DNA of 56,488 bases from a virus. Each line of letters begins with the position of its first letter. The first letter of the stretch is position 1. Under the pieces are notes generated by a model that was not told the DNA's origin, ran no database searches, and saw only the letters and a list, made by a program, of their open reading frames with translations. Location of the stretch: positions 1 through 56,488 of the IMG/VR virus record IMGVR_UViG_3300044701_000673. One strand, given 5' to 3'. Positions 8,601 through 48,102 of the stretch are shown piece by piece. The translations under genes and the position numbers were made by a program.

Positions 8601-10184
8601 GCTGTCGAACGGGGAGCGCGTGATCGGGTTGCTATACATCACCGGCACTGGGCCGGGCTGATTAAGCCGATCCAAGACATCACGGCCAACGGCGCGCATT
8701 GTATCGCCAGCCGCCTGCGTCGTGGGCGATGCCCCGAGCAGGCTCTCCATCACCGCAGTCGCAGCTGGCGCGCCGACACGCTTGGCAATGGCTGCGGGGC
8801 CAGCAACGCCAGCAACGCCCGAGAGCATGTTGCCCAGTGCAGCAAGGCGATCATAGCCGCCCGCATCGGGGTCCATCAGATCGCGGCCCGCACGCATCGC
8901 GCCGCCGATCGCTTCGACTGGGTTGAAGGTCTGATTGATCAGCGCCAAGCGCTCGGGAATACCGACGCCGAGGTCCAGCATGCCGGGCCTCTGAGGTGCC
9001 ACCCGAGCGCGCGGCACGCCGCCCTGCCCCGCGAGGTCTTCTTCGTACAGACCCTGCATCTGCTGCGCCAACTGGCGCGCCATGTAGGCCTCCTCGTCTT
9101 CCTCGACAACGCCGCCCGGAGCATACTTCTGGGTCAACTCGGCAAGGCCGCCCTCGGCAAAGCCCTGAGCCATGTTGAGGATGTCGTAGCCCTCGCTGAT
9201 GCGGTCAAAGCCGCTGCCCCGATACTTCGGGTCATCAATGCGCCAGCGGATGAAGTTCTTGCCCAAGATGTCGTGGGCCGCGTCGGGGTCGATGTTGGGG
9301 TTGCCCAAGAACGTCTCGCGGGTTCTGGCGTAGCTGGGGTCGTTCTCCATCTCATCGCGCAGATACATTGCCTGCGCGTTGAGAGCCTCCTGACCGGGAA
9401 CGATGCGGCCCGCCGGGTCGATCAGCCCGCGATCAGCCATGAACGACATCAGGCGGTCGGCCCGGTCGCCCTGCCAGCTCAGCATGCCGACATTGGTCGC
9501 CTTGTTGGCTGCGTCGGTGTGCGAGCCGTACAGATACGCCGGATTGAAGCTGCCCTCGCGGTTGATCTCAGCCGTCAGCGCCTTGGCCTGAGCGTCCGAG
9601 AACCCGGCAGCCTTGAAGGAATCAAACACCATCTTGGCCGTCTTGGATCGATCGGGATTGGCATTGCCTCCCGCCTCGACGCGGGCAGCATGCGGCCTCG
9701 GCTCATCGGCGTAGGCCTCGTAAAGATCCTCCAAGCTTCCGGCTGCACCGCTGCGGCCCAGAGCGCGCACGGGGTCGAACTCCTGCGTGCCCGCATCTGC
9801 GGCCTTGCTCTGCAAAGTACGGATCAAATCCTGAAACGATTCCAGCAGCGAGAAGTCGGGCTTCTTGATGCCCTCGTACTTCTCGTCAAGTTCCTCAAGC
9901 CCCACAGCGCCCCCCGTCTTCCACTTAACTTTGTCCGCCCAGTAGGCCGGGCTCGACTTGCCCTTGGCGATGTTCTTTGCGTGGCGAGCCTTGAACGAGG
10001 CGCGCTTTTGCTTCATGGCGTCCGACTCGCCCTCCTTGGGCTTGCCTGCCGTGCTGGCACCCTGCTCACCAAAGCGGATGATTTTTTCCTTGCCATCAAC
10101 GCGCGTCTTGACCACGTGCGACTTGGTCGGGTGGTCGGGCGTGCGGCGCGGCTTGTCGAGCGGCAGGCTGTCTTTGTCGATCAT
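5625..10184 (-). CDS. Giant polyvalent virion protein: lysozyme-, GNAT- and ADP-ribosyltransferase-like domains
   Basis: A 1519-residue multidomain protein between terminase and portal. Residues ~165-340 look like a tail-lysozyme domain (ALTAEINREGSFNP, VGMLSWQGDRADRL). Residues ~910-1025 resemble a GNAT acyltransferase (VLDAFAVPS, LPQYYKKFGFEEVGR). Residues ~1300-1440 resemble phage polyvalent ADP-ribosyltransferases (DVYHWSRSPDDFSEFD, then GPHVGTPQAAEARY). A linker module of ~135 residues (PVEAIGGAMRAG, LAALGNMLSGVAGVAGPAA) occurs twice, at ~341-490 and ~1152-1285. The short motif Y/F-A-x-GG-x-V occurs three times, with a related GGAV elsewhere. The start is ATGA-coupled to the upstream gene with AGGA seven bases away. 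Probably packaged and ejected into the host; enzymatic roles are inferred. Residues ~1050-1115 are low-complexity and overlap a second frame. Confidence 0.75.
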   Translation of the reverse strand: MIDKDSLPLDKPRRTPDHPTKSHVVKTRVDGKEKIIRFGEQGASTAGKPKEGESDAMKQKRASFKARHAKNIAKGKSSPAYWADKVKWKTGGAVGLEELDEKYEGIKKPDFSLLESFQDLIRTLQSKAADAGTQEFDPVRALGRSGAAGSLEDLYEAYADEPRPHAARVEAGGNANPDRSKTAKMVFDSFKAAGFSDAQAKALTAEINREGSFNPAYLYGSHTDAANKATNVGMLSWQGDRADRLMSFMADRGLIDPAGRIVPGQEALNAQAMYLRDEMENDPSYARTRETFLGNPNIDPDAAHDILGKNFIRWRIDDPKYRGSGFDRISEGYDILNMAQGFAEGGLAELTQKYAPGGVVEEDEEAYMARQLAQQMQGLYEEDLAGQGGVPRARVAPQRPGMLDLGVGIPERLALINQTFNPVEAIGGAMRAGRDLMDPDAGGYDRLAALGNMLSGVAGVAGPAAIAKRVGAPAATAVMESLLGASPTTQAAGDTMRAVGRDVLDRLNQPGPVPVMYSNPITRSPFDSARADQEAPLAPIPRITPKDILDARIIPTVADLTRTGGYYTGIDASKIDVPEPMMGGPGYPLLKSSQDAGLAWAVQGKHVGSKKAGSGADLIAVTAMNPTSHQSNISFINSLIKTTEAYARDQRLPRDVLQELDTRVRMSAAGGDPALSRLERFPGFESPNIQEFINNASFQERSRIADIIGSKGMQEQGLPNINRLLQETVDPRYAGANPRDTLLFIEPDFSAPPVDLLAEGLPVHPSYRYGIRGRVFGALDQNISTFEMFPDFWGEKNIRAFGPEFNKGGRRAFDLQLPIQEVTGKQVEDLERLLQTRSNQYPVESAMRLSPIDTRIITNSLLNKWKPTTKAVNAGGASPQAFVDAINNNKYKPALTNYTADDIKRGAKTGDLTVYQLGDDDVFFGVDAKPDYSWAGVEMMPDDKALVGVVSNAPGSKGTAAPSVMAKAIEDGVTVLDAFAVPSKRFPDGFLPQYYKKFGFEEVGRVPFDRDMYIADHGEQAFKDLLAAWKSDGWDESMGMPPVIVMRWSGSNADRTATAAGIRGAGAPSHRAAPEGIIPEAEGSVGRGGERLVSPEAPGVGRGASGGTGAGDGLRLAPGTGEPAKGLLGLTPQQLRNRGIPEADIQEIMKLRASSLDDLDQKYAEGGAVNSDDELQRAILLRDLDMMAQERSPNAVPAQDPSLMNVGGIGDRLALVNKYLNPVEAIGGAMRAGSRLTSADASGYDRLAALGDMLSGVAGVAGPAAVAKRVGTPAAAAVMEGLTGGAPAANAAPFGKDWSDVYHWSRSPDDFSEFDLNQSKSAMSQLGPHVGTPQAAEARYMGFAKPEGVPPALGFTLPMKADLSKPFLNPVTGKPWTEMDLEMFISAVSDANNMDRRLAAPFMRERLAKEGYTSIPYMNDVEDAGSVSHIMLADRPTGSDAVLRSRFAKFDPAMRASKNISAGAAVGAAGLGASQYDPDAIETRASKAGKNEFAAGGAVKYDPSAVNRIINQLREVNRG
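6740..7030 (-). CDS. Candidate nested gene in another frame of the giant virion gene
   Basis: A 96-residue frame wholly inside 5625-10184 but in a different frame of the same strand. It starts MQTEQPRRQAF with GGAG eight bases before the ATG at 7030. The product looks like a normal helical soluble protein (VEQVRRVIGPHLKG, KDLLDAAVSDLYRLKR, DEELLGELELVTDF), whereas the giant frame in the same stretch reads as Gly/Ala/Arg/Pro-rich low complexity, as an out-of-frame reading of GC-rich coding DNA would. It is either an overlapping gene or the remnant of an inserted domain captured by frame change. No family recognised. Confidence 0.5.
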   Translation of the reverse strand: MQTEQPRRQAFVEQVRRVIGPHLKGLSQRQKDLLDAAVSDLYRLKRPVSDEELLGELELVTDFVSPRGQESLQKAYWDLRLNNSETEASQRQTSKR

Positions 10185-12362: not shown

Positions 12363-12551
12363 TCACGGTGCGGATTGGTTGGCGGCCATTATACGCTCAG
12401 TGCTGACGAAAAGGAAGCCCGAGCGTTTTGATCCTAAAATACGTTTTGCTTCTTGCCTCGTCACGCCCAACTTGCGGGCTGCGTCTGAAACGCTGACGTA
12501 TTTGCCGATCGGTCGCGGCTTGCTGCCGTTGGGATGATACGGGCTGGTCAT
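12363..12551 (-). CDS. Small HTH-like DNA-binding protein
   Basis: A 62-residue protein with a predicted helix-turn-helix (YVSVSDAARKLGVTRQEAKRILGSK). It starts with an ATGA overlap after the transporter gene and ends 19 bases before the small terminase. It could regulate the terminase promoter that lies inside it or act as an excisionase-like factor; nothing else marks its target. Confidence 0.55.
   Translation of the reverse strand: MTSPYHPNGSKPRPIGKYVSVSDAARKLGVTRQEAKRILGSKRSGFLFVSTERIMAANQSAP
12388..12393 (-). promoter_or_regulatory. -10 element upstream of terminase genes
   Basis: TATAAT on the minus strand about 45 bases before the terS start, inside the end of the small HTH gene. The -35 region at 17-bp spacing (TTCCTT) is poor, so an activator or weak promoter is likely. 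The same TATAAT with a GC-rich flank occurs before 18304, 35957 and 52624. Confidence 0.4.
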
Positions 12552-13066
12552 CCTGTTTTTCTGAACCTAATCGCCATCAGGATGATTGCCGCAACAACTG
12601 TCATCCACAGTTTCCCCGCAATCTGGCCGGCGATGAAGTCAAAAGATCCAAAAGCCAGCCACAAGAACACGGCGCTATCTATCGCCGCTCCCACCACGCC
12701 TGATGCGATAACAGCCAGAACCAGACGCTTGCGATGGAGGGGAGCATATACGGCGAGGTCAGCCAACTCTGAGAGAAGAAACGCGGCAACCGATGCCACG
12801 ACAAGCGCAGGCGGTGAGAACTGGAAAGACAGGACGGCACCGAACAAGATGGCGGCGATTGCCCATTGCCATCCCAGCAGGCGATGCACGGCATCACGCA
12901 GGACTAAGGCCGCGCCAATCATCAGCACGCCAGAAGGGGCCATGAGGCCAAACCCTACTGGAATCAGGCAAGGTCCGTCTGGGATGCACTGGCCGACGTT
13001 GCCAATCATCCAGTTTGCTGTTGGTATTGTTGCTGCATATGCAGCCAAAGCGATGTATCCGTTCAT
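12548..13066 (-). CDS. YhhQ/VUT-family queuosine precursor (preQ0) transporter
   Basis: A 172-residue integral membrane protein with about six hydrophobic segments. Features of the VUT/YhhQ family (formerly DUF165) are visible: SELADLAVYAPLHRKR, then ASGVVGAAIDSAVFLWLAF and a closing GQIAGKLWMT segment. Family members import preQ0, a 7-deazaguanine precursor. The start is the ATG at 13066, which overlaps the stop of the TGT-like gene (ATGA); the longer frame from 13114 lies inside that gene. Direct coupling to a TGT/DpdA-like enzyme suggests the imported base is used for phage DNA or host tRNA modification. Confidence 0.78.
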   Translation of the reverse strand: MNGYIALAAYAATIPTANWMIGNVGQCIPDGPCLIPVGFGLMAPSGVLMIGAALVLRDAVHRLLGWQWAIAAILFGAVLSFQFSPPALVVASVAAFLLSELADLAVYAPLHRKRLVLAVIASGVVGAAIDSAVFLWLAFGSFDFIAGQIAGKLWMTVVAAIILMAIRFRKTG

Positions 13067-13743
13067 ACATGGAGATCCATTTGTTGAGGGCGAGTTTCCC
13101 AGCGCGCTGGGCATTGTGCGCCATCCCAGCGGTCAGCCATCTTGCGAGGTGTCTGATGCGGGAGATGGTGGTTTCGTGCGAGGTCGGTACTGTCCACTGA
13201 GCCGAATGGGTATTGCTTTCCAGATAACTGCATTCCGCGAAGCATGTGAAGCCACGGCATGCGTTTGTGGCGCGAGGCAAGTTCATTGAAGGCTTCATCC
13301 ATGCGGCGACACCAAGCGTCAGACAGCACGATTGCATATTCTGCTGTTGATCCCACGCAGACGCGAGGCCACTCGTCACAGAGTTGAAGGAGCCGATAGA
13401 TTGGCTCGTCCATATGCCAAACGGGCGCGCCCTTATGGCCATGAGGCCACTCCCGCAAAAGCGCATCTTGTTCCTGAGTTCCGGCGTCAATGACATCAGG
13501 GATCACGGCCCATGTGGTTGGGTAGTCAAGCCATTGATCGCACCACTGATAATACCCGTTCCAATTGGTCTGCTTTCCAGATTTCCAAGCTGAGAACGCG
13601 CCGTTATCCAACATCACAGACTGACCGATCATGTGAACCCGTGCGACATCCTGCGGCGCTGCATGTGAGACGCAGAAGCATCTGCCAGCAAGTTCCATTA
13701 TGGCTGAGATTGGCGTTATTGGCGTGCCGTGATAATGAATCAT
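13063..13743 (-). CDS. TGT-superfamily transglycosylase, DpdA-like (7-deazaguanine DNA modification)
   Basis: A 226-residue protein that looks like a compact TIM-barrel of the tRNA-guanine transglycosylase superfamily. Landmarks are SVMLDNGAFSAW (D46), WAVIPDVIDAG (D83), PVWHMDEP, a glycine turn RVCVGS and PFGSVDSTDLARNH (D184). DpdA enzymes swap guanine in DNA for preQ0-type bases; several phages use them to evade restriction. The start at 13743 shares bases with the upstream stop (ATGA); AAGAG is a weak ribosome site. Pairing with a preQ0 transporter is the main support for the DNA-modification reading. No zinc-binding Cys cluster of classical TGT is seen. A tRNA target cannot be excluded. 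Confidence 0.62.
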   Translation of the reverse strand: MIHYHGTPITPISAIMELAGRCFCVSHAAPQDVARVHMIGQSVMLDNGAFSAWKSGKQTNWNGYYQWCDQWLDYPTTWAVIPDVIDAGTQEQDALLREWPHGHKGAPVWHMDEPIYRLLQLCDEWPRVCVGSTAEYAIVLSDAWCRRMDEAFNELASRHKRMPWLHMLRGMQLSGKQYPFGSVDSTDLARNHHLPHQTPRKMADRWDGAQCPARWETRPQQMDLHV

Positions 13744-13961
13744 CTCTTCACCGCGATGTATTCGAAGAGGCCGAAACCTGCCCGCCTGCAAAACAGGAAA
13801 CACAGCTTTTCAGATTCCGCTTTGGCAGCCGCGTAGCGATGCAGGCCGCCGCAGCACTGTCCGACATGGTAAACGATGCGGTCACCCTTCTGCGCCTCTC
13901 CCAGCGCGCGGTAGAGGGCATCCTGCTTGGTGTCGCCGGTGATGTATATCGTGTTGCTCAT
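13740..13961 (-). CDS. Small protein coupled to the DpdA-like gene
   Basis: A 73-residue protein (MSNTIYITGDTKQDAL) with CCGGLHRYAAAKAESEK and an aromatic tail. Both ends overlap neighbours by four bases (ATGA), so it is made with the TGT-like enzyme. The nearby Cys pairs (QCCGG, CFLFC) could bind a metal. It may be an accessory or specificity subunit, inferred only from coupling. Confidence 0.55.
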   Translation of the reverse strand: MSNTIYITGDTKQDALYRALGEAQKGDRIVYHVGQCCGGLHRYAAAKAESEKLCFLFCRRAGFGLFEYIAVKR

Positions 13962-38614: not shown

Positions 38615-39376
38615 TTATGTTCTCCCCAATGCGCTGTACGTTTTCGTCATGTCAGCCCGAGTAAAGGGCTGATAGTTTTGTTTCAGGTGTTTTGGCATTG
38701 GGATCTCCCGGATCTCCGCCCCCGTTTCAGAGGCGACACGCCGAGCAACATGCATGAACGACTGCGCCGTTCCCGTGCCGACATTATACACACCCGAGAG
38801 GGGTAGGTCAAAGAAGCGCTTATGAATGTCGATGACTGTTTCGACCGGGACGAAGTCGCGCAGGAAATTCTCGCTGCCCTCAAACACCTTGATCACACCG
38901 TCAGCCGCCTGCCGCCGGAAGAGGCTATGCGGCGACGGCTGATCCTTGTGATCTTCGTGCGGGCCATAGACGTTGAAGTACCGAAAGAGCTGCACGGGAA
39001 CCGACCAGTTATGGCGCTCGACGTATTTCTCCACGATGAACTTAGACAGCGCGTAAGGGTTCAGTGGCTGCGGCTTGTCGGTCTCAACGAAGGTGGTGTT
39101 GTCTGGCCCATATACGGCAGCCGACGAGGCGATCTGGATGGGAATGCCACGCTCCTCGCAGGCTGTGATAAGGCGCACGGAAGAGATGACGTTCTGCTGC
39201 AAGAGCGCGTCCCAATCCCGACATGCCGTGCTGCTGATGGCGCCGAGGTGAATGACCCGCTCTATGCCGTCAAGGTTAGGCTCGCCGTCGCCCCACTCGT
39301 GGCCCACCGAACCCGGCAGAGCCTCCATCATGTTCTGGCCGATGAAGCCGCGATGTCCGGTGATCAGAATGGCCAT
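38615..39376 (-). CDS. NAD-dependent epimerase, HldD/RfaD-like
   Basis: A 253-residue short-chain dehydrogenase/epimerase. The Rossmann start ITGHRGFIGQNMMEAL binds NAD, ASSAAVYG and YALSKFIVEKY supply the Ser-Tyr-Lys catalytic set, and YFNVYGPHEDHKDQPSPHSLF and DFVPVETVIDIHKRFFD match ADP-glycero-manno-heptose 6-epimerase (HldD). It is shorter than E. coli HldD (310). With kinase and nucleotidyltransferase genes upstream it fits an ADP-heptose route; a generic nucleotide-sugar epimerase is the alternative. Confidence 0.72.
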   Translation of the reverse strand: MAILITGHRGFIGQNMMEALPGSVGHEWGDGEPNLDGIERVIHLGAISSTACRDWDALLQQNVISSVRLITACEERGIPIQIASSAAVYGPDNTTFVETDKPQPLNPYALSKFIVEKYVERHNWSVPVQLFRYFNVYGPHEDHKDQPSPHSLFRRQAADGVIKVFEGSENFLRDFVPVETVIDIHKRFFDLPLSGVYNVGTGTAQSFMHVARRVASETGAEIREIPMPKHLKQNYQPFTRADMTKTYSALGRT

Positions 39377-39645
39377 TGTGCTTTGTCATCCACCCAAACG
39401 TCATAGGACGGCTTCCCCATCCACAACTGGTGATACTTGCACCCCCACTGGTCAAGCTGGCTTTTTGTCAGCTCCGACCAGTCTGTGCTCGAGGCCATGC
39501 CGCGTGCGGTCCAATAGATGATCTCGTGGCCCTGATCGTACAGATCGTTGATCTGCGAGATCCGGTCGATGTAGGGCTCAGCGTCATGGTAGGCGCTGGC
39601 GGTCTGACTGCAAATGGTGCCATCAATGTCTACGACATACCTCAA
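39364..39645 (-). CDS. Small HAD-family phosphatase
   Basis: A 93-residue HAD fold with the nucleophile motif VVDIDGTICS, IIYWTARGM (motif II Thr) and GKPSYDVWVDDKA (motif III Lys, IV Asp pair). Such minimal HADs accompany capsule and nucleotide-sugar genes; in heptose synthesis the GmhB step is a HAD phosphatase, which this could replace. The start taken is TTG 39645, overlapping the upstream TGA by four bases; no ATG precedes the first motif in this frame. Confidence 0.65.
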   Translation of the reverse strand: MRYVVDIDGTICSQTASAYHDAEPYIDRISQINDLYDQGHEIIYWTARGMASSTDWSELTKSQLDQWGCKYHQLWMGKPSYDVWVDDKAQWPF

Positions 39646-40049
39646 CGCAAAACTCTCCCACGCTGCAGGGTCGATGACAGCCCGTGGCGTCGTCGGTTGT
39701 AGTGGATCTTCACTCCGAGCTGCTCGCACAAATCTTTGCCGGTGAAGTTCTTGCCCTTGTACTCCTCGCCAACGATGCGGACGGCGGGGCAAAGGAGAGC
39801 GATCAGGCGCTCAAGTTCTGCCTCCGTCTGGTACGTGATGATTTGAGAAACGTATCGTACTGCGCTGAGTTGGATGTGCCGCTCGGACAGATCTTGCATC
39901 GGCTTTGATTTGCTTGGTCGCTCAAGGCTCGGGTCAACGTGCAGCGCGCAGACAAGGACATCGCACAGGGATGCGGCCTCCTCCAGCATGGCGATGTGCC
40001 CCGCGTGCAGCATGTCAAAGGCGGAGGCCGTGAACCCGACGGTTTTCAT
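39642..40049 (-). CDS. Cytidylyltransferase-like nucleotidyltransferase
   Basis: A 135-residue protein of the glycerol-3-phosphate cytidylyltransferase fold: VGFTASAFDMLHAGHIAMLEEA with the HxGH motif, and VRIVGEEYKGKNFTG as the second nucleotide site. It would activate a sugar or polyol phosphate with CTP or ATP. A second enzyme of this fold (HldE C-like) lies at 40967-41482. ATGA overlap with the kinase gene. Confidence 0.75.
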   Translation of the reverse strand: MKTVGFTASAFDMLHAGHIAMLEEAASLCDVLVCALHVDPSLERPSKSKPMQDLSERHIQLSAVRYVSQIITYQTEAELERLIALLCPAVRIVGEEYKGKNFTGKDLCEQLGVKIHYNRRRHGLSSTLQRGRVLR

Positions 40050-40765
40050 GTCTTCTTCACCGCGTAGACGCCCGGATGCGTGCAGGCTTGGGCCGCATAG
40101 ACGTTGGCCGCCGAGAGGGCTGACGGCATGTCGCTGTCCTTGGTGTAGTGGTAGGCCAGCGCCGCGAGGAAGGTGTCGCCAGCGCCGCAGACGTCCACCA
40201 CGTCAACCTTGGGTGCGGAGAAGTTCTCGCCCTTGTACCAGCATCCGCCAGCGCCGCACGTCACGATCAGATCGTCCGGCTCGCTTTTCAGCTTGTCATG
40301 CTCAACGCTATTGATCTTGAATATCGGGCCTGACAGCGGCTTCAGGTGCGTCTTCTTGGTGTCAACAAAGATCGGCCCCCGGTAGGCGTTGATGAGCGCC
40401 AATAGGTTGTCTTGGGTGATGAAGCCCTTGTTGTAGTCCGACACGACGATGGCGTCTAACTTAGAATAGAACTCAGGCGTGTTGACCTTGTAGGGCTGGC
40501 TCTGAGCGTCCTGATCCACGCGCATGAGCTGGGTCACCCCATCCTCAGCATAGAAGCGCGTCTTCTTGGAATATGGCTCAGACGGGAAGTGAACGGTGAC
40601 GTCGCAGAAGGCGCGAAGGTTCTCAGCCACGTTGGCCGCCATGCCGGGTGATCGGCGGGTGTGCGTCTGCCGCAGGAGGGTGGCCGCCGCCTCGGGGTTC
40701 TTCCGCTCCGTCGTCCCGTAGACATAAATGTCCTCGCAGACGTCGCCGATGACGAGGATCAGCAT
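40046..40765 (-). CDS. PfkB-family sugar kinase, HldE N-domain-like
   Basis: A 239-residue ribokinase-fold kinase. VIGDVCEDIYVYG opens the domain, SPGMAANVAENLRAF binds the sugar, IVVSDYNKGFI resembles the HldE (RfaE) heptose kinase domain, and VDVCGAGDTFLAALA is the PfkB signature with catalytic Asp. It would phosphorylate heptose 7-phosphate at position 1. In bacteria this domain is fused to the nucleotidyltransferase; here a cupin gene lies between them. Confidence 0.78.
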   Translation of the reverse strand: MLILVIGDVCEDIYVYGTTERKNPEAAATLLRQTHTRRSPGMAANVAENLRAFCDVTVHFPSEPYSKKTRFYAEDGVTQLMRVDQDAQSQPYKVNTPEFYSKLDAIVVSDYNKGFITQDNLLALINAYRGPIFVDTKKTHLKPLSGPIFKINSVEHDKLKSEPDDLIVTCGAGGCWYKGENFSAPKVDVVDVCGAGDTFLAALAYHYTKDSDMPSALSAANVYAAQACTHPGVYAVKKT

Positions 40766-41109
40766 CCTTGACTGTCTCCCGGCAGGACGCGGAAATTGTC
40801 CTCAACGGTGTCTTGGCTTGAAACCTCAATGATGATGCCGGGGCCTTCTACGCAGTGCAGTTGGTGAGGCAGGAGGGGCGCATTGCGCCAGACATCTCCC
40901 TTGCGGAGATACTGAGAGTGCGGGGTCGCGGTCTTGGTGTCTATGGTCGTGAGTTTGAAGACGCCATCAAGGACGTACCACGTCTCGTCCTTGTCCCGAT
41001 GAAAGTGCATCGAGAACTTCCTCCCCGGCTCGAAGCAGAGAAGTTTCCCACAGTAGGTCTCCGTCGAGGCAAAAATCTCCTCGTGTCCCCAACCCTTTTC
41101 GACGCGCAT
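40759..41109 (-). CDS. Cupin-fold sugar protein
   Basis: A 116-residue cupin: [18 protein letters not shown] carries the metal-binding His/Glu set and [22 protein letters not shown] the second motif. Similar cupins act in sugar-phosphate isomerisation or accompany nucleotidyltransferases. It could stand in for the missing GmhA-type isomerase, but this is a guess. ATG 41109 is the start used; the frame overlaps the nucleotidyltransferase gene by 143 bases. Confidence 0.65.
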
Positions 41110-41482
41110 GCTCAATAATCCCTGTCGTTGATTTGTCGGCAACGTAAGGGATTACGACGACCTTTGCCAAGTCTCTTCCGACAATATTATTTGCGCTATA
41201 GTCACCGCCTTTAGTGATGACGTCAGGACGCAGGCTTTTGATCAGCTCGTAGGGGGTGTCCTCGTCAAAGATCACCACCTCGTCAACGCAGGCCAGCGCC
41301 CGCAGAACCTCGGCCCGATCCTCTTGGGAATTGATGGGACGATCTGGGCCCTTGATCCGCCGGACGGATGCGTCAGAGTTCAGGCCGACGACCAGCTTTG
41401 TGCCGAGCGCTTTTGACGCCTGCAGGTATCGGATGTGGCCGACGTGCAGAATGTCGAAGCAGCCGTTGGTGAAGACTAGCAT
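40967..41482 (-). CDS. HldE C-domain-like nucleotidyltransferase (RfaE2)
   Basis: A 171-residue protein whose first ~128 residues match the ADP-heptose synthase domain: [18 protein letters not shown] (HxGH), [42 protein letters not shown] and the ending [10 protein letters not shown]. It joins ATP to heptose 1-phosphate. The family normally ends there, but this frame runs about 43 codons more into the cupin gene in another frame, with a tail unlike the family. The tail may be translated junk after a stop loss. Overlaps the GT25 gene by seven bases. Confidence 0.8.
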
Positions 41483-42168
41483 GACAGGTCGTCGTTGCGA
41501 AGGGTGCTCCTGCCCTCTTTCGGGCGGCCCAAGATCGTCGTCTCTTGGTCTTTCACGTCATATGCGAAGACGCCCATCTGGTGGATCGGGAAGATGTCGG
41601 CGCGCAAGAGAATGTCGAGCGGGGCGTTGATCCCGTACTTCAGGACGTGGGCCAGCATGTTCTTGGCCACGGCAGGATCGACGGCATAAGCGTGAGCCCG
41701 GCAGATGAAGTGGTAGTTGGGCCCCTCGCTGGCATGCGGCGGCGTTGGCATGACACCCCAGCCTTGGTTCACCTGCTCGTTGCTGCCGAGATAGCAGATC
41801 GAGTTGAAGACGGCGTGCTGCGTATAGGGCTGCACCATGACGGCGTCATGCTCAAGGATCACGAGCGGTCGGTCTTCCAACACGCACTTCTGCCAGAGGC
41901 TGATGTGGCTCAGGGCGCAGGCCACCTCGCCTCGGGTCATGTAGTGGTCGGTGACCTTGACCATGGCAGGCACGCCGCCGTGGTGCTCTGGCGGCTGGAT
42001 CGGGTTCTGGATGCCGTCGTAGGCGTCCCAATACATCCACGGCATGCCAGCCAGATCGCAGCTCTCTGCTGCGCGCTGCGCCTTCTGCATCGACATCTCA
42101 TGGTTCGGGATGCGGATGATGTAGGCTTTGGTGACGGACTGGTTGTAGTTGTAGTTGAGGGATTTCAC
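41476..42168 (-). CDS. Glycosyltransferase family 25
   Basis: A 230-residue GT25-type enzyme with [41 protein letters not shown] and [11 protein letters not shown] (acid for metal-sugar nucleotide binding). GT25 enzymes add sugars in LPS outer core synthesis. Start is GTG with AAAGG seven bases upstream. Being beside an ADP-heptose-like cassette it may use that sugar; substrate is unproven. Confidence 0.75.
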
Positions 42169-42171
42169 GGG

Positions 42172-43383
42172 TTAGCCTTTGGTGATGGCGTGGACATGGT
42201 CACTGCCCACCGAAACCTGCATCCAGTTGGTCGACGCACCAATTTGAACAGGGCTGGACTTAGCAACAACAGTGCCGTCGCCGATTTGACCAAATGGGTT
42301 GTTACCCCACGAAAAAAGAGTGCTCGACGTCGTGACGCAAGCGCTGTTAGTAAGCCCCGCTGAAACCCCCGCCCAGTTTGTTAACGCGCCGACTTGAACA
42401 GGGCTGGAGCGGCTAATCGTGTCCCCAAGGCCAAGACGCCCTTGACCGTTACTACCCCAAATAAATAGAGTGCCCCCCGCTGTAGTGCAGGCTGTGTGTT
42501 GACCCCCCGCTGAAACCTGCGCCCAGTTTGTTAGTGCGCCGACTTGAACAGGACTAGAAAGGTTGATGCCGTTGTTGTGGCCGAGCTGACCGTCGCTGCC
42601 GTTCCCCCATGAAAAAAGGGTGCTGTCAGTCTTGACGCAAGCGGTTAGGTTTCCACCGGCTGAAACCTGCGCCCAGTTTGTTAAAGCGCCCACTTGAACA
42701 GGACTAGAGCGATTGATGATTGTGCCGTCGCCAAGCATGCCTTTTCCGTTGTAGCCCCACGACCACAAAGTTCCGTCAGTTTTAACGCAGGCAGTATGCA
42801 AACCGCCCGCTGAAACCTGCGCCCAGTTTGTTAAAGCGCCCACTTGAACAGGACTAGAGCGATTGATGATTGTGCCGTCGCCAAGCCGCCCATAGCTGCC
42901 GTCCCCCCACGTGAACAGCGTACCATCCGTCTTGACACAAGCCATGTGATCTAGGCCCGATGAAACCTGCGCCCAGTTAGTTAGTGCGCCAACTTGAACA
43001 GGACTAGAAGAAGACGCAACACTGTCGTGCCCTAGTCGGCCACTGGCTCCGTTACCCCACGTAAAAAGTGTGCCCGCCGTCGTAACACTTGCGGCTTGAC
43101 TCCGGCCCGATGAAACCTGCGCCCAGTTAGTTAACGCACCAATCTGAACAGGACTAGACTTGTCGATGACAGTGCCGTCGCCAAGCTGCCCGCTGGGACT
43201 GTTGTCCCCCCAAGCATAAAGCTCCCTCGGCAAAACCTTCTGCGGCCAGTTCCCCGCCTTTTGCAACCCAAGCTGCTCAGCCAGCGTCCAGACGCCAGAC
43301 GCGGAACCGCCCTCGCCGTCAACGGGTGCGACGACCGTGGGCGGTGTCTTGCTGATTACGCCACCGGGGAAGCGGTCGCCCAT
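42172..43383 (-). CDS. RCC1-repeat propeller protein 1
   Basis: A 403-residue protein with seven RCC1-type repeats of about 50 residues (LFTWGNGASGRLG; RSSPVQVGALTNWAQVSAG), which should close into a seven-bladed propeller. An ~80-residue N-terminal region, without RCC1 repeats, may anchor it to the particle. Two repeats share ~78 identical bases (42660-42737 and 42810-42887). Phage proteins of this type are probably exposed virion or receptor-binding parts. AAGGAG precedes the ATG. Confidence 0.72.
   Translation of the reverse strand: MGDRFPGGVISKTPPTVVAPVDGEGGSASGVWTLAEQLGLQKAGNWPQKVLPRELYAWGDNSPSGQLGDGTVIDKSSPVQIGALTNWAQVSSGRSQAASVTTAGTLFTWGNGASGRLGHDSVASSSSPVQVGALTNWAQVSSGLDHMACVKTDGTLFTWGDGSYGRLGDGTIINRSSPVQVGALTNWAQVSAGGLHTACVKTDGTLWSWGYNGKGMLGDGTIINRSSPVQVGALTNWAQVSAGGNLTACVKTDSTLFSWGNGSDGQLGHNNGINLSSPVQVGALTNWAQVSAGGQHTACTTAGGTLFIWGSNGQGRLGLGDTISRSSPVQVGALTNWAGVSAGLTNSACVTTSSTLFSWGNNPFGQIGDGTVVAKSSPVQIGASTNWMQVSVGSDHVHAITKG
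42561..42641. repeat. Segment shared between RCC1 genes (copy 1)
   Basis: These 81 bases match 46956-47036 in the third RCC1 gene with one mismatch, far more alike than the surrounding repeats. It looks like recent gene conversion or recombination between paralogs. Confidence 0.85.
42660..42887. repeat. Near-identical RCC1 repeat units
   Basis: The segment beginning at 42660 is repeated exactly for about 78 bases starting at 42810, a period of 150 bases (50 codons). Identity at silent sites points to recent duplication or exchange. Confidence 0.85.
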
Positions 43384-43395
43384 CGGAAATACTCC

Positions 43396-43821
43396 TTACA
43401 GAGCGTCAACAGCCTCGTGGGTCGTCGCAGCGGCGATCTCGTCCATGCGGGCCTCAAAGACAACGCGAGCCGCATCCACGACAGCAGCGTCATACTGCGT
43501 CTCGGGATACTGGTCGGTTTCCTTGGCAACCTCTGCGTCAACCACAGCCTTAAACTCAGCCTTGGCAGACCCCCGCAAGCCATCCTTGCGCTCGTCAACC
43601 TCAAGCTCGCGCTTCGACCAAACGATCTGCGCAGGCTCAACGTCGATGTCGATCAGGTGCGTGGTCATCATCTCGCGGTTAGCCACAAGATCAGGCATGA
43701 CTTCTACGGCCTCGCGCCAGCCGGGCTCAGACGCCAGCTTGTCAGCCGACGGCTTGTAGTCCCAAACGTCTTTGACTTGGCCGTTTTTGACGCGAATCCA
43801 GTAGCCCGTTTTCGTAGGCAT
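43396..43821 (-). CDS. Conserved protein between RCC1 and fusion enzyme genes
   Basis: A 141-residue mostly helical, acidic protein (GYWIRVKNGQVKDVWDYKPS; KAEFKAVVDAEVAKETDQY). The start resembles short proteins that accompany fibre genes, perhaps a fibre-assembly factor. AAGGAG is six bases before the ATG. Its first 80 bases overlap the end of the sulfotransferase/glycosyltransferase gene. Confidence 0.5.
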   Translation of the reverse strand: MPTKTGYWIRVKNGQVKDVWDYKPSADKLASEPGWREAVEVMPDLVANREMMTTHLIDIDVEPAQIVWSKRELEVDERKDGLRGSAKAEFKAVVDAEVAKETDQYPETQYDAAVVDAARVVFEARMDEIAAATTHEAVDAL

Positions 43822-45562
43822 GGAGCAACTCCTTTTTCAATTCTCCAAAGACCGTGACCCAGTCTCCGTGTCCAGTTTGACGGAACAGCCGCACGCTGTC
43901 GTACCACTCCGTCGTGTTTCCCGGCTTTGCCCAAAGATAATACGGAAGCACGGGCGTGACAATCCATGTCGGTATACCCATTGCAGCCGACATGTGGGAA
44001 ACTGATGTGCAAGACGATACCACAAGATCGCAGGAAGCGATAGCCTGCCGGGTGTCTTCCCAGTGCGCCAAAGGCAGCTCCTTGACCCACGCGGGCCTGT
44101 GCTCCGCGCCCTCGTCGCGCTGCAGGCTGACATATTCAACATCCAAGCCCTTCACCGCGTTGAACAGATACTGCGCCGGGAAGATGCGGTGCTGCTCATG
44201 CTCGAACTGCGGGTTGCCCTGCCAGCGCAGGCCGATCCGAAACTTGTCGCCCTTAGCTACATCTGGCTTCGGGATGTAGGCCGACCCGTCGATGTGCTTG
44301 TACTGCCAGCCCAGCGGAATGCTGGCCGTCATGCTGGGCACCCAGAAGTCATGCACCACGCCGAAGGCAGCCTCGTGCTGGATGACCATGTCCACGCCAT
44401 CAACCTTGCGCATGGTCATCGCCAGCGCGCCGGAGCAGGCCACGATGACCTGATTGCCGCGCTTCTTCAGCTCGCGGGCATAGCGGACGCCGTGGATTTG
44501 ATCGCCGAGGCCAGCCTCCAAGTTCAACAGGATCGTGCCCGTCGATACCCCATCCCAGATCGGCGTCGGCACTTTGGGTGCCTCGTTGCCGAAGACCTTT
44601 TCGATCCGGCCTCTGTCCAGCAGCTTCATGCCGTCCAGCAGGTGGCCCTTCCGCATCTCGTACCAGCCGCGATTGAAGGCCGCGCGGTGGTTCTTCGGCT
44701 CCTTGATCGCCAGCTCCTGAGCAATCTCCTCGCCGCGCTTGAAGTCGCCGATGATCCCGGCGGCCAGCTGCATGTCGAGCGGGTGGATCATCTCGGTCGT
44801 CAGCGGCTTTTCGCGCCAGAAGCAGGGCTGCACGAAGTTCTGGCGCATGTGCTGGAGGATGTCTTCAGGGTCGTCGTTGTGACGCTTGGCCAGCTTCGGT
44901 GCCACGGTATGCAGGCCGGGGACGTTCCAGATTTCCTCGTCGCGCTCCTTGGGGGCATGCTCGTCGAGGTGGTTGAAGTCGTAGTCGAAGTCGCCGATCT
45001 CAAGAAACTCGTGGATGCGGGCGAGCTGCTTCTTGGGGTCGGCGATCAGGTCTTCGTACTCGACAAAGAGGAAGCAGGACTGGTCGTAGTTGAAGCCCGT
45101 GAGAAGCACCTGATAAGACTTCTTGAGGTGGTCGATCAGGTCACTGTTGCGGAGGAAGTCCTCGACATCGTTGGGCTTCGCCACGCGCACGAAGGATGCC
45201 GCGCAGTCGTCGATGTTGCGAACGGTGGCAATGATCTTCGGCTTTCGGCCCAGAAGTTCGTGCAGCACGCGCAGGCTTGAGACCTCGGCCCAGTTCCGCG
45301 CCTTGTCGATCACGACAGGCTTTTCCACCTTGGCGTACTTGGCGTCCATGATGCCACGCAGCACGGCCTTGATCTGGTCTTCGTCCGGTGCCGCCTGCTC
45401 CGCCGAGCTGCCCTGCCACGCCTTGAAGGTGTTGAACATCACCTCGCCCATGCCGCTGGTGGGGCTGGCGTGAAGGTCGGGGTGCTGGTTCAAGAGCGCG
45501 GCGAGGACGGTGCTGCCCGAGCGGGGAAGGCCTGCGAGGAAGTGGAAGGTTTTCTGGAGCAT
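43742..45562 (-). CDS. Sulfotransferase fused to TPR and heptosyltransferase-like domain
   Basis: A 606-residue fusion. Residues ~1-250 are a sulfotransferase: AGLPRSGSTVLAALLNQHP is the PAPS-binding loop and VRNIDDCAASFVR the 3'-phosphate site. Residues ~265-330 look like TPR helices. Residues ~335-585 resemble GT9/heptosyltransferase-type domains found after TPRs (LEAGLGDQIHGVRYAREL; IGLRWQGNPQFEH; SCDLVVSSCTSVSHMSAAMG). It may transfer the sugar made by the adjacent cassette and sulfate it, on host LPS or on the RCC1 proteins. ATG 45562 overlaps the upstream stop (TAATG). Confidence 0.72.
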   Translation of the reverse strand: MLQKTFHFLAGLPRSGSTVLAALLNQHPDLHASPTSGMGEVMFNTFKAWQGSSAEQAAPDEDQIKAVLRGIMDAKYAKVEKPVVIDKARNWAEVSSLRVLHELLGRKPKIIATVRNIDDCAASFVRVAKPNDVEDFLRNSDLIDHLKKSYQVLLTGFNYDQSCFLFVEYEDLIADPKKQLARIHEFLEIGDFDYDFNHLDEHAPKERDEEIWNVPGLHTVAPKLAKRHNDDPEDILQHMRQNFVQPCFWREKPLTTEMIHPLDMQLAAGIIGDFKRGEEIAQELAIKEPKNHRAAFNRGWYEMRKGHLLDGMKLLDRGRIEKVFGNEAPKVPTPIWDGVSTGTILLNLEAGLGDQIHGVRYARELKKRGNQVIVACSGALAMTMRKVDGVDMVIQHEAAFGVVHDFWVPSMTASIPLGWQYKHIDGSAYIPKPDVAKGDKFRIGLRWQGNPQFEHEQHRIFPAQYLFNAVKGLDVEYVSLQRDEGAEHRPAWVKELPLAHWEDTRQAIASCDLVVSSCTSVSHMSAAMGIPTWIVTPVLPYYLWAKPGNTTEWYDSVRLFRQTGHGDWVTVFGELKKELLHAYENGLLDSRQKRPSQRRLGLQAVG

Positions 45563-46713
45563 TAGTTGGTTGCGCCTTGGAGGATGGCCAAAACATATCC
45601 TTGGCCTGCAGAAGCAGAGAACCACGAGGTTGATGCGCCAACTTGTACTGGGCTAGAACGGTTTGTGGTGTTACTTTGGCCAAGCTCGCCTTGGCTATTT
45701 TGACCCCAAGCCCAAAGAGTGCCGTCGGTTTTGACAGCTGCGTTGAGACGGTTGCCTGCTGATACTTTTGACCAGTTAGTCAGCGCACCAATTTGAACAG
45801 GGCTGGAGCGGTTGATGATGTTGTTTTGGCCGAGTTGGCCTGTGTCATTGTATCCCCAAGCCCAAAGAGTTCCCGTTGTTTTTACGGCAGTTGCGTGGTA
45901 GCTGCCCGCAGAAACACTAGCCCAATCCGTTAGCGCACCGATCTGAACAGGGCTAGACCTGTAGATATTATTTCCTCCACCCAAACGTCCAAAACTACCC
46001 TTGCCCCAAGACCATATAGTGTTGTCAGTCTTTACGGCAGTCGAAAACTCACCTCCGGCAGATACCTGCGCCCAATTTGTTAGGGCACCAATTTGGACAG
46101 GGCTTGACTTGTCGGCGACAGTGCCGTCTCCGACTTGGCCGCTGCCATTTCTTCCCCAAGCCCACATTGTGTTGTTAGTTTTCACCGAAAGCGTTGAGTT
46201 TAAGCTGGAAGAAGTAGAACTCCAATCCGTCAATGCGCCAACTTGCACCGGGCTAGACCGATATCCAGTTGTCGCGTTGATGCCAAGAGCCCCAAAAGCG
46301 TTAGCCCCCCAAGCCCATAGAGTTCCATTGCTCTTAACCGCAGAGGAGAACGTGGAGCCAGAAGAAATTGAGTACCAGTCGGTCAGGGAACCGACCTGCA
46401 CAGGGCTGGAGCGGTTGATGACGTTGTTCTGGCCGAGTTGGCCTGAGGTGTTTAGCCCCCAAGACCAAAGTGTCCCGTCTGATCTTAAGCCTAAGCTATG
46501 ACCACTTTCTGGGCCCACCGAAAGAATAGACCATGTTTGTGCGGAGCCGACCTGAGTCGGGCTAGACACACTGACTGTCGCATTCAAGCCTGTTCGGCCG
46601 TCTGTTCCTGAACCCCACGCATACAACTCATACGCAGGCAACCCCGTCCACGTCCCTGCGGCCACGGCCTGAATCTGCTCTTTTAGGTTCCAGACGCCGG
46701 AGAAATTGGGCAT
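45562..46713 (-). CDS. RCC1-repeat propeller protein 2
   Basis: A 383-residue paralog with seven RCC1 repeats (LWAWGYNDTGQLGQNN; NRSSPVQIGALTNWSKVSAG) behind a ~30-residue start FSGVWNLKEQIQAVAAG, different from its neighbours. GGAG is eight bases upstream of the ATG. It ends in a TAATG overlap with the fusion enzyme, so the two are translated together, which ties the sugar enzyme to the propeller proteins. Confidence 0.72.
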   Translation of the reverse strand: MPNFSGVWNLKEQIQAVAAGTWTGLPAYELYAWGSGTDGRTGLNATVSVSSPTQVGSAQTWSILSVGPESGHSLGLRSDGTLWSWGLNTSGQLGQNNVINRSSPVQVGSLTDWYSISSGSTFSSAVKSNGTLWAWGANAFGALGINATTGYRSSPVQVGALTDWSSTSSSLNSTLSVKTNNTMWAWGRNGSGQVGDGTVADKSSPVQIGALTNWAQVSAGGEFSTAVKTDNTIWSWGKGSFGRLGGGNNIYRSSPVQIGALTDWASVSAGSYHATAVKTTGTLWAWGYNDTGQLGQNNIINRSSPVQIGALTNWSKVSAGNRLNAAVKTDGTLWAWGQNSQGELGQSNTTNRSSPVQVGASTSWFSASAGQGYVLAILQGATN

Positions 46714-48102
46714 TTATACTACTCCGAGGATAGCGAAGGTTTGAGCCCCACCTGACGAAACTTGCAGCCAAGTCGTAAGGGCGCCAACTTGGACGGGGCT
46801 GGATAAGTTGATATCGTTGTTATGGCCAAGGCGGCCGCTTCCGTTGTTTCCCCAAGTAAACAGTGTCCCCGCCGTTGTGATGCAGGCGGTCTGGGTGCTA
46901 CCCGCCGCACCCTGTGCCCAATTGGTTAAAGCGCCAACTTGAACGGGGCTGGAGAGGTTGATGCCGTTGTTGTGGCCGAGCTGACCGTAGCTGCCGTTCC
47001 CCCATGAAAAAAGGGTGCTGTCAGTCTTGACGCAAGTGTTGAAGTAATTTCCCGAAGAAACCTGAGCCCAGTTCGTTAGAGCGCCGACTTGCACGGGACT
47101 GGAATGGTCGACGACGTTGTTGTGGCCGAGCTGGCCAAAGTTGCTGCTGCCCCAAGTGAAGAGAGTGCCTGCTGTCGTGACGCAAGCGGTAAAACCAGTT
47201 CCTGCCGAAGCCTGAGCCCAATTTGTTAATACGCCGACCTGCACAGGGCTGGAACGGCTGATCGTGTTGTTGTGGCCGAGACGGCCGGATTGATTGAGTC
47301 CCCACGTAAAGAGTGTTCCCGCCGTTGTTACACAGACGGTGTGGAAGTTTCCTATAGCAGCCTTTGCCCAATTAGTTAAAGCACCTACTTGCACAGGGCT
47401 AGATCGGCTAGTTGTGTCGCCAAGTCCGAGACGGCCATAGCTCCCGTTGCCCCAAACAAAGAGCGTTCCCGCTGTCGTGACGCAAACGGTGTGAGCCCCC
47501 TCGGCACGCGAAGCAACCTGCGCCCAATTGGTTAAAGCGCCAACTTGAACGGGGCTGGATAAGTTGATATCGTTGTTATGGCCAAGGCGGCCGCTGCCAT
47601 TGTAGCCCCAAGTAAACAGTGTCCCCGCCGTTGTGATGCAAGCGGCAAAGTTATAACCTGACGCAACTTGTGCCCAATTGTCTAAGGCGCCAACTTGGAC
47701 GGGGCTAGAACGGTTGATAGTGTCGCCAAGGCCAAGGCGGCCGCTTCCGTTGCCGCCCCACGCATACAACCCGGCCCCAGAGTATATCTCGTTCCCCGTA
47801 TCAAACTCCGTCAGCCGCCCCGGCCCGAAGTTGTTGACCGCCTGCGCGCGAATTTTGAACGTGCCGCCGCCGGGAGAGATCGAAATAGGTGAAGCAGACC
47901 CAGTAGCCCCTGTCGAGACGCCCGTGCTCTCGTCAATCGCCGTGACGATGTACGACGTGATCGCGCCGTCACCCGTGTCGGTGGGCGCGGTAAACGAAAC
48001 GCTGGCCGAGCCGATGCTCGTGCTCACACTGAGATCAGTGGGCGCGTTCGGTGTACTGAGAGGCGTGAAGGTGCCTAGTGTGCCGCCTTGTCTGCGAGAC
48101 AT
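46714..48102 (-). CDS. RCC1-repeat propeller protein 3 with fibronectin III domain
   Basis: A 462-residue protein. Residues ~15-105 form an Fn3-like domain (APTDLSVSTSIGSASVSFTAPTD; GGTFKIRAQAVNNFGPG), then seven RCC1 repeats follow. Fn3 domains are common on phage surface proteins. GAGGAG is seven bases before the ATG. The 81-base segment at 46956-47036 is nearly identical to the first RCC1 gene. Confidence 0.72.
   Translation of the reverse strand: MSRRQGGTLGTFTPLSTPNAPTDLSVSTSIGSASVSFTAPTDTGDGAITSYIVTAIDESTGVSTGATGSASPISISPGGGTFKIRAQAVNNFGPGRLTEFDTGNEIYSGAGLYAWGGNGSGRLGLGDTINRSSPVQVGALDNWAQVASGYNFAACITTAGTLFTWGYNGSGRLGHNNDINLSSPVQVGALTNWAQVASRAEGAHTVCVTTAGTLFVWGNGSYGRLGLGDTTSRSSPVQVGALTNWAKAAIGNFHTVCVTTAGTLFTWGLNQSGRLGHNNTISRSSPVQVGVLTNWAQASAGTGFTACVTTAGTLFTWGSSNFGQLGHNNVVDHSSPVQVGALTNWAQVSSGNYFNTCVKTDSTLFSWGNGSYGQLGHNNGINLSSPVQVGALTNWAQGAAGSTQTACITTAGTLFTWGNNGSGRLGHNNDINLSSPVQVGALTTWLQVSSGGAQTFAILGVV
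46956..47036. repeat. Segment shared between RCC1 genes (copy 2)
   Basis: The partner of 42561-42641, one mismatch in 81 bases, which changes one residue (Asp to Tyr) of the repeat. Confidence 0.85.

Follow-up and report, generated by a model that had tools for sequence, protein, structure and literature searches.

A phage gene cassette for a probable NDP-heptose pathway without GmhA, adjoining genes for RCC1 propeller proteins

The IMG/VR virus record IMGVR_UViG_3300044701_000673, analysed over its whole length of 56,488 bases (hereafter the window), carries terminase, portal, primase/helicase, exonuclease, ejection, tail and lysis genes, together with a minus-strand cassette of sugar-activation genes next to three genes for RCC1 propeller proteins. 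On balance, this cassette probably encodes a nucleoside diphosphate heptose (NDP-heptose) pathway that does without GmhA and heptosylates, perhaps also sulfates, the RCC1 propellers of the virion. The firmer part of this reading, which we consider likely, is that the phage has an NDP-heptose pathway with a cupin as isomerase; the neighbouring RCC1 propellers are put forward only tentatively as the heptose acceptor. Gene identities, conserved active-site positions, linkage, gene fusions, the exclusion between GmhA and cupin and a predicted heptosyltransferase fold were computed.

From these results we infer the chemistry of each step, which nucleotide and which acceptor are used, and the joint expression of the genes. 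In the proposed pathway, the cupin would convert sedoheptulose 7-phosphate into D-glycero-D-manno-heptose 7-phosphate, a phosphate would be added at C-1 by the PfkB kinase, the small HAD protein would remove the phosphate at C-7, the first nucleotidyltransferase (NT1) would transfer the nucleotide, and the HldD-like enzyme would epimerise C-6. The WaaC/TibC-fold domain of a sulfotransferase/TPR/glycosyltransferase (GT) fusion protein would move the heptose, most likely onto the neighbouring virion RCC1 propellers, with possible sulfation and further extension by the GT25 enzyme. GmhA turns a ketose into a manno-aldose, as happens with one carbon fewer when fructose 6-phosphate becomes mannose 6-phosphate, and cupin ketol-isomerases carry out this same chemistry.

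A preliminary description of this region, made from the letters alone, had placed an epimerase, a HAD protein, two nucleotidyltransferases, a kinase, a cupin and a GT25 glycosyltransferase together, and all of them were found on the minus strand with the motifs attributed to the region (HxGH twice, CGAGDTF, GHRGFIG, EHDA and LPRSGST). The activated-heptose route of the HldE/HldD kind that it proposed was supported, the kinase, NT1 and the epimerase being nearest in sequence to the ADP-heptose enzymes HldA/HldE and HldD. With a profile of 12 phage kinases, the best solved relative of the kinase was the heptose-7-phosphate kinase HldA (4e84, E 3.6e-28; next 6.5e-12). The window kinase keeps the R..PEA and GAGD stretches, of which PEA is varied in some cyanophages. 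The epimerase matched the solved structure of HldD (1eq2, E 6e-43) with identity at S116, Y140, K144 and K178, positions with catalytic roles in E. coli HldD, and YGxxExxK was kept across 13 aligned epimerases. The promiscuous heptose enzymes described in PMC11573728 carry R just before an STT motif that NT1 shares, where NT1 has K.

The second nucleotidyltransferase (NT2) had been labelled a cytidylyltransferase, a label that was given up, NT2 being closest to HldE-C/phrog_7878. NT2 was also rejected as a core pathway enzyme: none of 77 NT2-anchored phage loci had the kinase, RCC1 or the GT domain within 6 kb (L178-L254; three loci from the phage group to which the window belongs were left out, and many of the contigs are short). 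Judged by eye, the genes around NT2 there looked like those of T4-like phages for nucleotide metabolism and other functions unrelated to sugars. The small HAD carries DxDGT phosphatase motifs and showed weak matches to PNKP/EcbF-type families; its gene is present as described earlier, but its start is most likely TTG at 39645 (93 aa) and not 39792. No open reading frame (ORF) of the window matched a model of phage GmhB-like proteins (E<=0.01), and the small HAD, though of the phosphatase type by its motifs, is not GmhB. The name 'phosphoheptose isomerase' that PHROG and record entries give to this HAD was ruled out by the DxDGT motifs together with an empty record-level SIS_2 search.

Eight residues of the cupin (Y19, K22, H35, H37, K40, E42, H82 and E95) were invariant in 57 sequences and aligned with the same residues in the ketol-isomerase 2y0o; K22, H35, H37, K40, E42, H82 and E95 correspond to metal and active-site residues of D-lyxose isomerase. 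Along the greater part of its length, the cupin profile matched D-lyxose ketol-isomerases, the aligned positions including YCxK, HxH, K-x-E and, further on, H and E. Of the 57 members, 34 matched MannoseP_isomer, the C-terminal family of phosphomannose isomerases. In Pfam, the window cupin scored 29.2 bits with this family (cut-off 23.6), 33.1 with Cupin_2 (cut-off 27.2) and 15.6 with Lyx_isomer, under the cut-off of 20.8. Its structural model (predicted local distance difference test, pLDDT, 95.2) gave Z scores of 16.2 to CapF, 15.5 and 15.4 to archaeal phosphomannose isomerases, and 14.2 and 13.9 to lyxose isomerases. The record name 'cysteine dioxygenase' was ruled out by the isomerase-like residues.

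A contribution of GmhA from the host had been suggested for this route; the evidence from fusions and from the pattern of exclusion is instead that the cupin takes the place of GmhA. The SIS domain (SIS_2) gave no match in the window at E<=1, and GmhA (SIS_2) was absent from all 49 cassette records tested of 95, many of which are fragments. In cellular genomes this search gave matches in 23 of 27, of which 21 scored above the family cut-off. Cupin and NT1 shared one reading frame in the phage contigs L101-L103, cupin and HldE-type kinase did so in six archaeal genomes (G045, G099, G088, G206, G325, G343), and cupin and epimerase in G345. GmhA was fused to an HldE-type kinase in four genomes (G136, G157, G415, G055), and cupin and GmhA occupy the same C-terminal place on the fused kinases. 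The operon of the archaeon ARS1414 (L086) holds an epimerase, a full-length HldE-type kinase-cupin fusion, a GmhB-like HAD, an HldE-C-like nucleotidyltransferase and, by eye, a GT9-like gene; SIS_2 was not found in the genome of this archaeon.

In the phylum of ARS1414 (Woesearchaeota included, per record titles), 64 of 371 genomes had the kinase at E<=1e-80, and their cupin scores fell into two groups, with 17 genomes at 86 bits or more and the next at 47.6. GmhA was missing from 14 of these 17 strong-cupin genomes and present in 37 of the other 47, a distribution (14/3 vs 10/37) with a Fisher p of 1.5e-5 that ignores kinship; counting every cupin match at E<=1e-8 gave 15/6/9/34 and p 2e-4. 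By listed coordinates, 15 of the 17 strong cupins shared a frame with the kinase or lay at most 2 kb away from it (G061 and G270 being the exceptions). A strong cupin was found in 17 of the 64 kinase-bearing genomes vs none of 53 without a strong kinase match. In archaeal operons, this type of cupin stands with genes for a full-length HldE-type kinase and for GmhB-like, HldE-C-like and HldD-like proteins. Judged from these sequence comparisons, the cupin most likely replaces GmhA. No open-access paper on the topic was found that links a cupin to sedoheptulose, heptose isomerisation, gmhA or ADP-heptose.

The cassette is widespread in phages. The window kinase matched 31 phage records, duplicates included, of which 27 were Synechococcus, Prochlorococcus or Cyanophage entries and 4 'Marine virus' entries. 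Nucleotidyltransferase, kinase, HAD and cupin stood together in all eight loci inspected, with a full-length epimerase match in six. The five-gene core was found in P-SSM2, S-SSM7, S-CAM3, Sf-FS3, P-TIM68 and marine virus AG-345-O18; the epimerase match was weak or cut in S-T4 and AG-345-E08, which have the other four genes. P-TIM68 adds transketolase-, alcohol-dehydrogenase- and FabG-like genes. An HldE split by a cupin had been regarded as an oddity, but in the phage loci seen, kinase and nucleotidyltransferase were as a rule encoded separately, with a cupin gene close at hand.

A wider set of 87 viral kinase loci was formed by the best 80 of 565 confirmed in a profile scan of viral contigs and the eight earlier loci, one being shared; some are near-identical (L001-L003, L006). 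Nearby genes included NT1 in 82, cupin in 81, epimerase in 71, small HAD in 29, a GmhB-like protein in 6 and another HAD family in 5. In the 57 well-flanked loci, with about 3 kb on either side, NT1 was near in 56, cupin in 55 (not L097 and L116) and epimerase in 49, with phosphatases represented by small HAD in 22, GmhB-like in 4 and the other HAD family in 5. As a control, the cupin model matched only 2 of 77 cellular kinase loci, one being the fusion in L086. GmhB-like genes stood at the cassette in six loci without small HAD (L101-L103, L112, L121, L175), and because they occupy such cassettes, this suggests that the GmhB-like protein and the small HAD do the same job.

Two side observations concern these loci. 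A Thaumarchaeota-binned contig (ASW8; L019:8639-11120) has a phage-type HAD-cupin-kinase-nucleotidyltransferase set and may be a viral contig in that bin. L107 (8834-9622) and its relatives, eight loci in all, encode an APS-kinase-like domain (45 bits) and, after it, an HxGH nucleotidyltransferase-like stretch; in most of these loci the pair directly precedes NT1, and it could make 3'-phosphoadenosine 5'-phosphosulfate (PAPS) for nearby sulfotransferases.

The sulfotransferase part of the fusion protein matched Sulfotransfer_3 (71 bits). The last 352 residues of the fusion gave a predicted structure (pLDDT 85.8) whose top fold matches were WaaC 2h1f (Z 16.4, root-mean-square deviation 3.1, 228 aligned), WaaF 1psw (16.3), TibC 4rap (15.6) and GT9 3tov (15.4); the eight best rows ranged from 16.4 to 15.2 and the next had 13.2. 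Foldseek also ranked WaaC and TibC first. The C-terminal domain is predicted to fold like the heptosyltransferases WaaC, WaaF and TibC. The heptosyltransferase-like domain anticipated here was borne out by this fold without a Pfam match: no GT9 match was found at E<=0.01 (14 members scanned), and among solved chains at E<=10 the domain matched TPR regions and, weakly, ACPI-6 (E 2.3), with no heptosyltransferase or GT9/TibC.

Coupling of the fusion gene to an RCC1 gene, also described beforehand, was seen directly in the bases as a TAATG overlap between the RCC1b stop and the fusion start. Over the 87 kinase loci, GT domain and RCC1 were both near in 15, GT domain alone in 3, RCC1 alone in 4 and neither in 65, counts that ignore kinship; RCC1 was near 15 of 18 loci with the GT domain vs 4 of 69 others. 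RCC1 genes adjoined the cassette in both marine single-cell viruses inspected. The cassette lay close to tail-fibre or other virion genes in five of six cyanophage loci, with carbamoyltransferase or 2OG-oxygenase genes, or glycosyltransferases. In published work, RCC1 proteins were listed among the virion proteins of phage W70 found by mass spectrometry (PMC11370258), those proteins being assigned to phrog_4219, which also matches RCC1c of the window; for phage GAP32, an RCC1-like protein identified by mass spectrometry is reported as structural (PMC5259590); and TibC transfers heptose from ADP-heptose to serines of an adhesin (PMC4358343). No open-access paper was found on phage tail-fiber glycosylation with glycosyltransferase and sulfotransferase. 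Three RCC1 propellers had been counted earlier, and all three showed seven RCC1 stretches, but two of them (45562-48102) lie beyond the interval first assigned to the region. As a side observation, the three genes (42172-48102) have similar repeats that matched each other's relatives in several registers by blastn, as expected if RCC1 repeats were swapped by recombination.

Several results weigh against the proposed pathway. No cassette protein reached an NCBIfam equivalog cut-off, and by these curated cut-offs none is an HldE or HldD equivalog member: the kinase scored 102.3 bits with TIGR02198 (HldE N-domain), below 345; NT1 scored 180.3 bits with TIGR02199 (HldE C-domain), 1.2 under 181.5, and NT2 77 bits; and the epimerase scored 197 bits with TIGR02197 (HldD) over residues 35-250, below 274.6. 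The names 'HldE-like' and 'HldD-like' are used because none passes its cut-off. A profile comparison with HldD, HldE, GmhB and GT9, proposed with the preliminary description, gave HldA/HldE and HldD as nearest, but with scores below the cut-offs and with GmhB and GT9 unmatched. For the cupin, the best solved-chain match was the oxalate-decarboxylase-like 2vqa (1e-7 vs 7.6e-7 for 2y0o), identity to the cupin ketol-isomerases was at most 24% with other cupins scoring as well, many other cupins tied with the model by Z (KdgF and DddK among the top), and Foldseek ranked oxalate decarboxylase first. Because isomerases, oxalate decarboxylase, CapF and others rank alike, the fold does not fix the function of the cupin. 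A recognised phosphatase was missing at 26 of the 57 well-flanked viral cassettes. The GmhB/HisB phosphatase model TIGR01656 was matched in 5 of 49 records, and in two of these (L153, L016) the small HAD is present too, the second phosphatase lying at another place. Among the archaea, three strong-cupin genomes had GmhA (G158, G270, G345) and ten of the others lacked it, the 80-bit line for a strong cupin was drawn after the scores were seen, and one kinase-less genome had a cupin at 79.3 bits (counting it, 17/64 vs 1/53, p 1.6e-4). Incompleteness of many of the records and genomes, and shared ancestry of the species, make these absences and p values no more than a rough guide. For the transferase, the likeness to heptosyltransferases is at the level of predicted fold, and Foldseek further down also matched protein O-GlcNAc transferase (OGT) and SPINDLY. 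An RCC1 gene was seen in none of the six named cyanophage loci (L009-L014).

Activated heptose could instead serve to modify host lipopolysaccharide (LPS) or some other glycan on the cell surface, so that superinfection is blocked or the receptor is hidden. GT25 and the WaaC/WaaF-like fold belong to LPS enzyme families, a pelagimyophage paper reads phage glycosyltransferases as host-surface change (PMC7029224), and a cyanophage paper lists its heptose genes under LPS synthesis (PMC7378029). We regard this account as unlikely for the window, where the stop of an RCC1 gene overlaps the start of the transferase gene, where the cassette sits between tail/RCC1 genes and lysis genes, and where no O-antigen polymerase, ligase or flippase family was found among the proteins scanned (not every ORF). 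The co-occurrence of GT domain and RCC1 described above also speaks against it. Because of the GT fold, the GT/RCC1 co-occurrence and the finding of RCC1 proteins in virions, virion glycosylation is favoured over LPS change with modest confidence. The acceptor may differ between phage groups, because cyanophage cassettes adjoin tail-fibre or other virion genes.

Host GmhA might also supply heptose 7-phosphate, with the cupin performing another step such as further epimerisation or nucleotide-sugar tailoring. This appears quite improbable: although cupins have many activities (CapF, KdgF and DddK stand near the top of the fold list) and a GmhA supplied by the host is conceivable, cupin and GmhA largely exclude each other in the 64 kinase-bearing archaeal genomes, they take the same C-terminal place on the kinase, and ketol-isomerases are among the closest solved relatives of the cupin, matched over most of its length. 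It is highly doubtful that the cassette activates a sugar other than heptose through HldE/HldD-like enzymes of changed specificity. Scores under all equivalog cut-offs, a kinase about 75 aa shorter than HldE-N and the added P-TIM68 genes would fit such a change, but the HldD positions S116, Y140, K144 and K178 and the kinase stretches R..PEA and GAGD are kept, and archaeal operons join the same cupin type to HldE-type kinase, GmhB-like, HldE-C-like and HldD-like genes.

If the cupin is the isomerase, a heptose pathway in phages and archaea has been overlooked by searches for GmhA and GmhB. A phage with an activated-sugar pathway and a heptosyltransferase-like enzyme beside its own propellers would be a candidate for virion protein glycosylation, of which few cases are known to us. 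More speculatively, and rather short of probable, many phages and some archaea of one phylum would share a second, GmhA-independent NDP-heptose pathway started by a cupin isomerase, and in one phage group this pathway, together with a TPR-linked TibC-like transferase, would serve the O-heptosylation (and sulfation) of the RCC1 propellers of the phages' own virions.

In the direction of transcription, the genes stand in the order RCC1a, RCC1b, sulfotransferase/TPR/GT fusion, 141-aa protein, RCC1c, GT25, NT1, cupin, kinase, NT2, HAD and epimerase (Table 1). From GT25 through the epimerase, seven minus-strand frames (38615-42168) overlap, each start overlapping the preceding stop. Overlaps read directly were 7 nt for GT25/NT1 and for cupin/kinase, ATGA for kinase/NT2, TTGA for NT2/HAD and 13 nt for HAD/epimerase; NT1 extends about 140 nt into the cupin frame. 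At this place (40967-41109) the final roughly 40 residues of NT1 share bases with the cupin gene start, and this extra tail is kept in L001 and L004 and absent from cyanophage NT1. The ratio of nonsynonymous to synonymous substitutions (dN/dS) against the near relatives L001, L004 and L005 was 0.07-0.24 in the frames compared (epimerase, NT2, kinase, cupin, NT1 core, GT25 and sulfotransferase fusion); for several of the pairs, dS was close to 1 or higher. Because of these ratios and the family matches, the genes are not due to chance; all named genes are real and the observation is confirmed. The 141-aa protein had no match in Pfam, NCBIfam or PHROGs at E<=0.001.

Table 1. Features of the cassette and its flank in the window, in order of transcription
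Feature	Position	Strand	Length and basis
RCC1 protein a	46714..48102	-	462 aa, seven RCC1 repeats; Pfam RCC1, 7 stretches
RCC1 protein b	45562..46713	-	383 aa, seven repeats; Pfam RCC1, 7 stretches; stop overlaps next start
Sulfotransferase/TPR-like/GT-B fusion	43742..45562	-	606 aa; sulfotransferase ~44993-45541, GT-B ~43781-44539
Small conserved protein beside RCC1 genes	43396..43821	-	141 aa; without family; relatives in 11 of the loci that were clustered
RCC1 protein c	42172..43383	-	403 aa; Pfam RCC1 244 bits, 7 stretches; phrog_4219 118 bits
GT25-family glycosyltransferase	41476..42168	-	230 aa; Glyco_transf_25 51.9 bits, cut-off 24
NT1, HldE C-domain-like nucleotidyltransferase	40967..41482	-	171 aa; TIGR02199 180.3 bits
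Cupin, proposed sedoheptulose 7-phosphate ketol-isomerase	40759..41109	-	116 aa; profile matches, fusions to pathway enzymes
PfkB kinase, HldE N-domain type	40046..40765	-	239 aa; TIGR02198 102.3 bits
NT2, second HldE-C-like nucleotidyltransferase, accessory	39642..40049	-	135 aa; TIGR02199 77 bits
Small HAD phosphatase, proposed GmhB analogue	39364..39645	-	93 aa, TTG start; phrog_1238 106 bits, EcbF-BcbF 26 bits
HldD-like NAD-dependent epimerase	38615..39376	-	253 aa; TIGR02197 197 bits

Gene order varied among relatives. The window (39364-40765), L004 and L005 have kinase-NT2-HAD-epimerase, and L001-L003 and L006 have kinase-HAD-NT2-epimerase; despite this difference, the window kinase is 95% identical to that of L001 and 80% to that of L004. 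For the sulfotransferase fusion, identity with L004 reaches 98%. This region and its relatives look like a recombination mosaic. The large terminase was nearest to those of Roseobacter phages CRP-901 and CRP-902 (46% identity), which hints at an alphaproteobacterial host. Elsewhere in the window, two overlapping genes at 12548-13803 encode a queuine tRNA-ribosyltransferase-like protein (phrog_887) and a Vut_1 'vitamin uptake transporter' (Pfam 42.5 bits), a pair resembling phage 7-deazaguanine DNA-modification genes, and a 1519-residue protein (5625-10184) has a phage tail lysozyme domain (34.7 bits).

Compared with the bacterial ADP-heptose pathway (GmhA, HldE, GmhB, HldD), the phage kinase, nucleotidyltransferase and epimerase are homologous and the order of the chemistry would be the same; however, neither GmhA nor GmhB was found in the window, cupin and small HAD are proposed instead, the kinase is short and separate, and the genes are those of a phage. 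For the NDP-heptose enzymes of Tang et al. 2024, which include viral ones, two commentaries state that the enzymes tested from each kingdom could make ADP-heptose (PMC11461863, PMC11573728), and one of them reports that the cross-kingdom survey saw no phosphatase in viruses (PMC11461863); the parts of the two commentaries consulted do not mention a cupin. Among the literature matches listed on viral NDP-heptose, only these two appeared to be on topic. If true, the cupin pathway would help to explain the lack of phosphatase in that survey. Cyanophage heptose/LPS genes (P-SSM2, S-CAM3, S-SSM7, SynMITS9220M01), noted in PMC7378029, belong to these five core families and likewise lie near genes for tail fibres or other virion proteins. 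RefSeq names their HAD 'phosphoheptose isomerase' and their cupin 'cysteine dioxygenase', and, unlike the window, the six loci have no RCC1.

The predicted fold of the GT domain is like those of TibC/AAH autotransporter heptosyltransferases and of GT9 WaaC/WaaF (Z 15.2-16.4). However, the domain bears no sequence match to solved GT9/TibC chains, the fusion has TPR and sulfotransferase domains where TibC has a barrel and an iron finger, and its neighbour is a propeller instead of a beta-helix. The cupin shares its fold with the cupin ketol-isomerases D-lyxose isomerase (2y0o/7nzo) and archaeal phosphomannose isomerases (7zvy/7zvm), with Z of 13.9-15.5, and has the Y-K, HxH, K-E, H and E residues in common with D-lyxose isomerase 2y0o.

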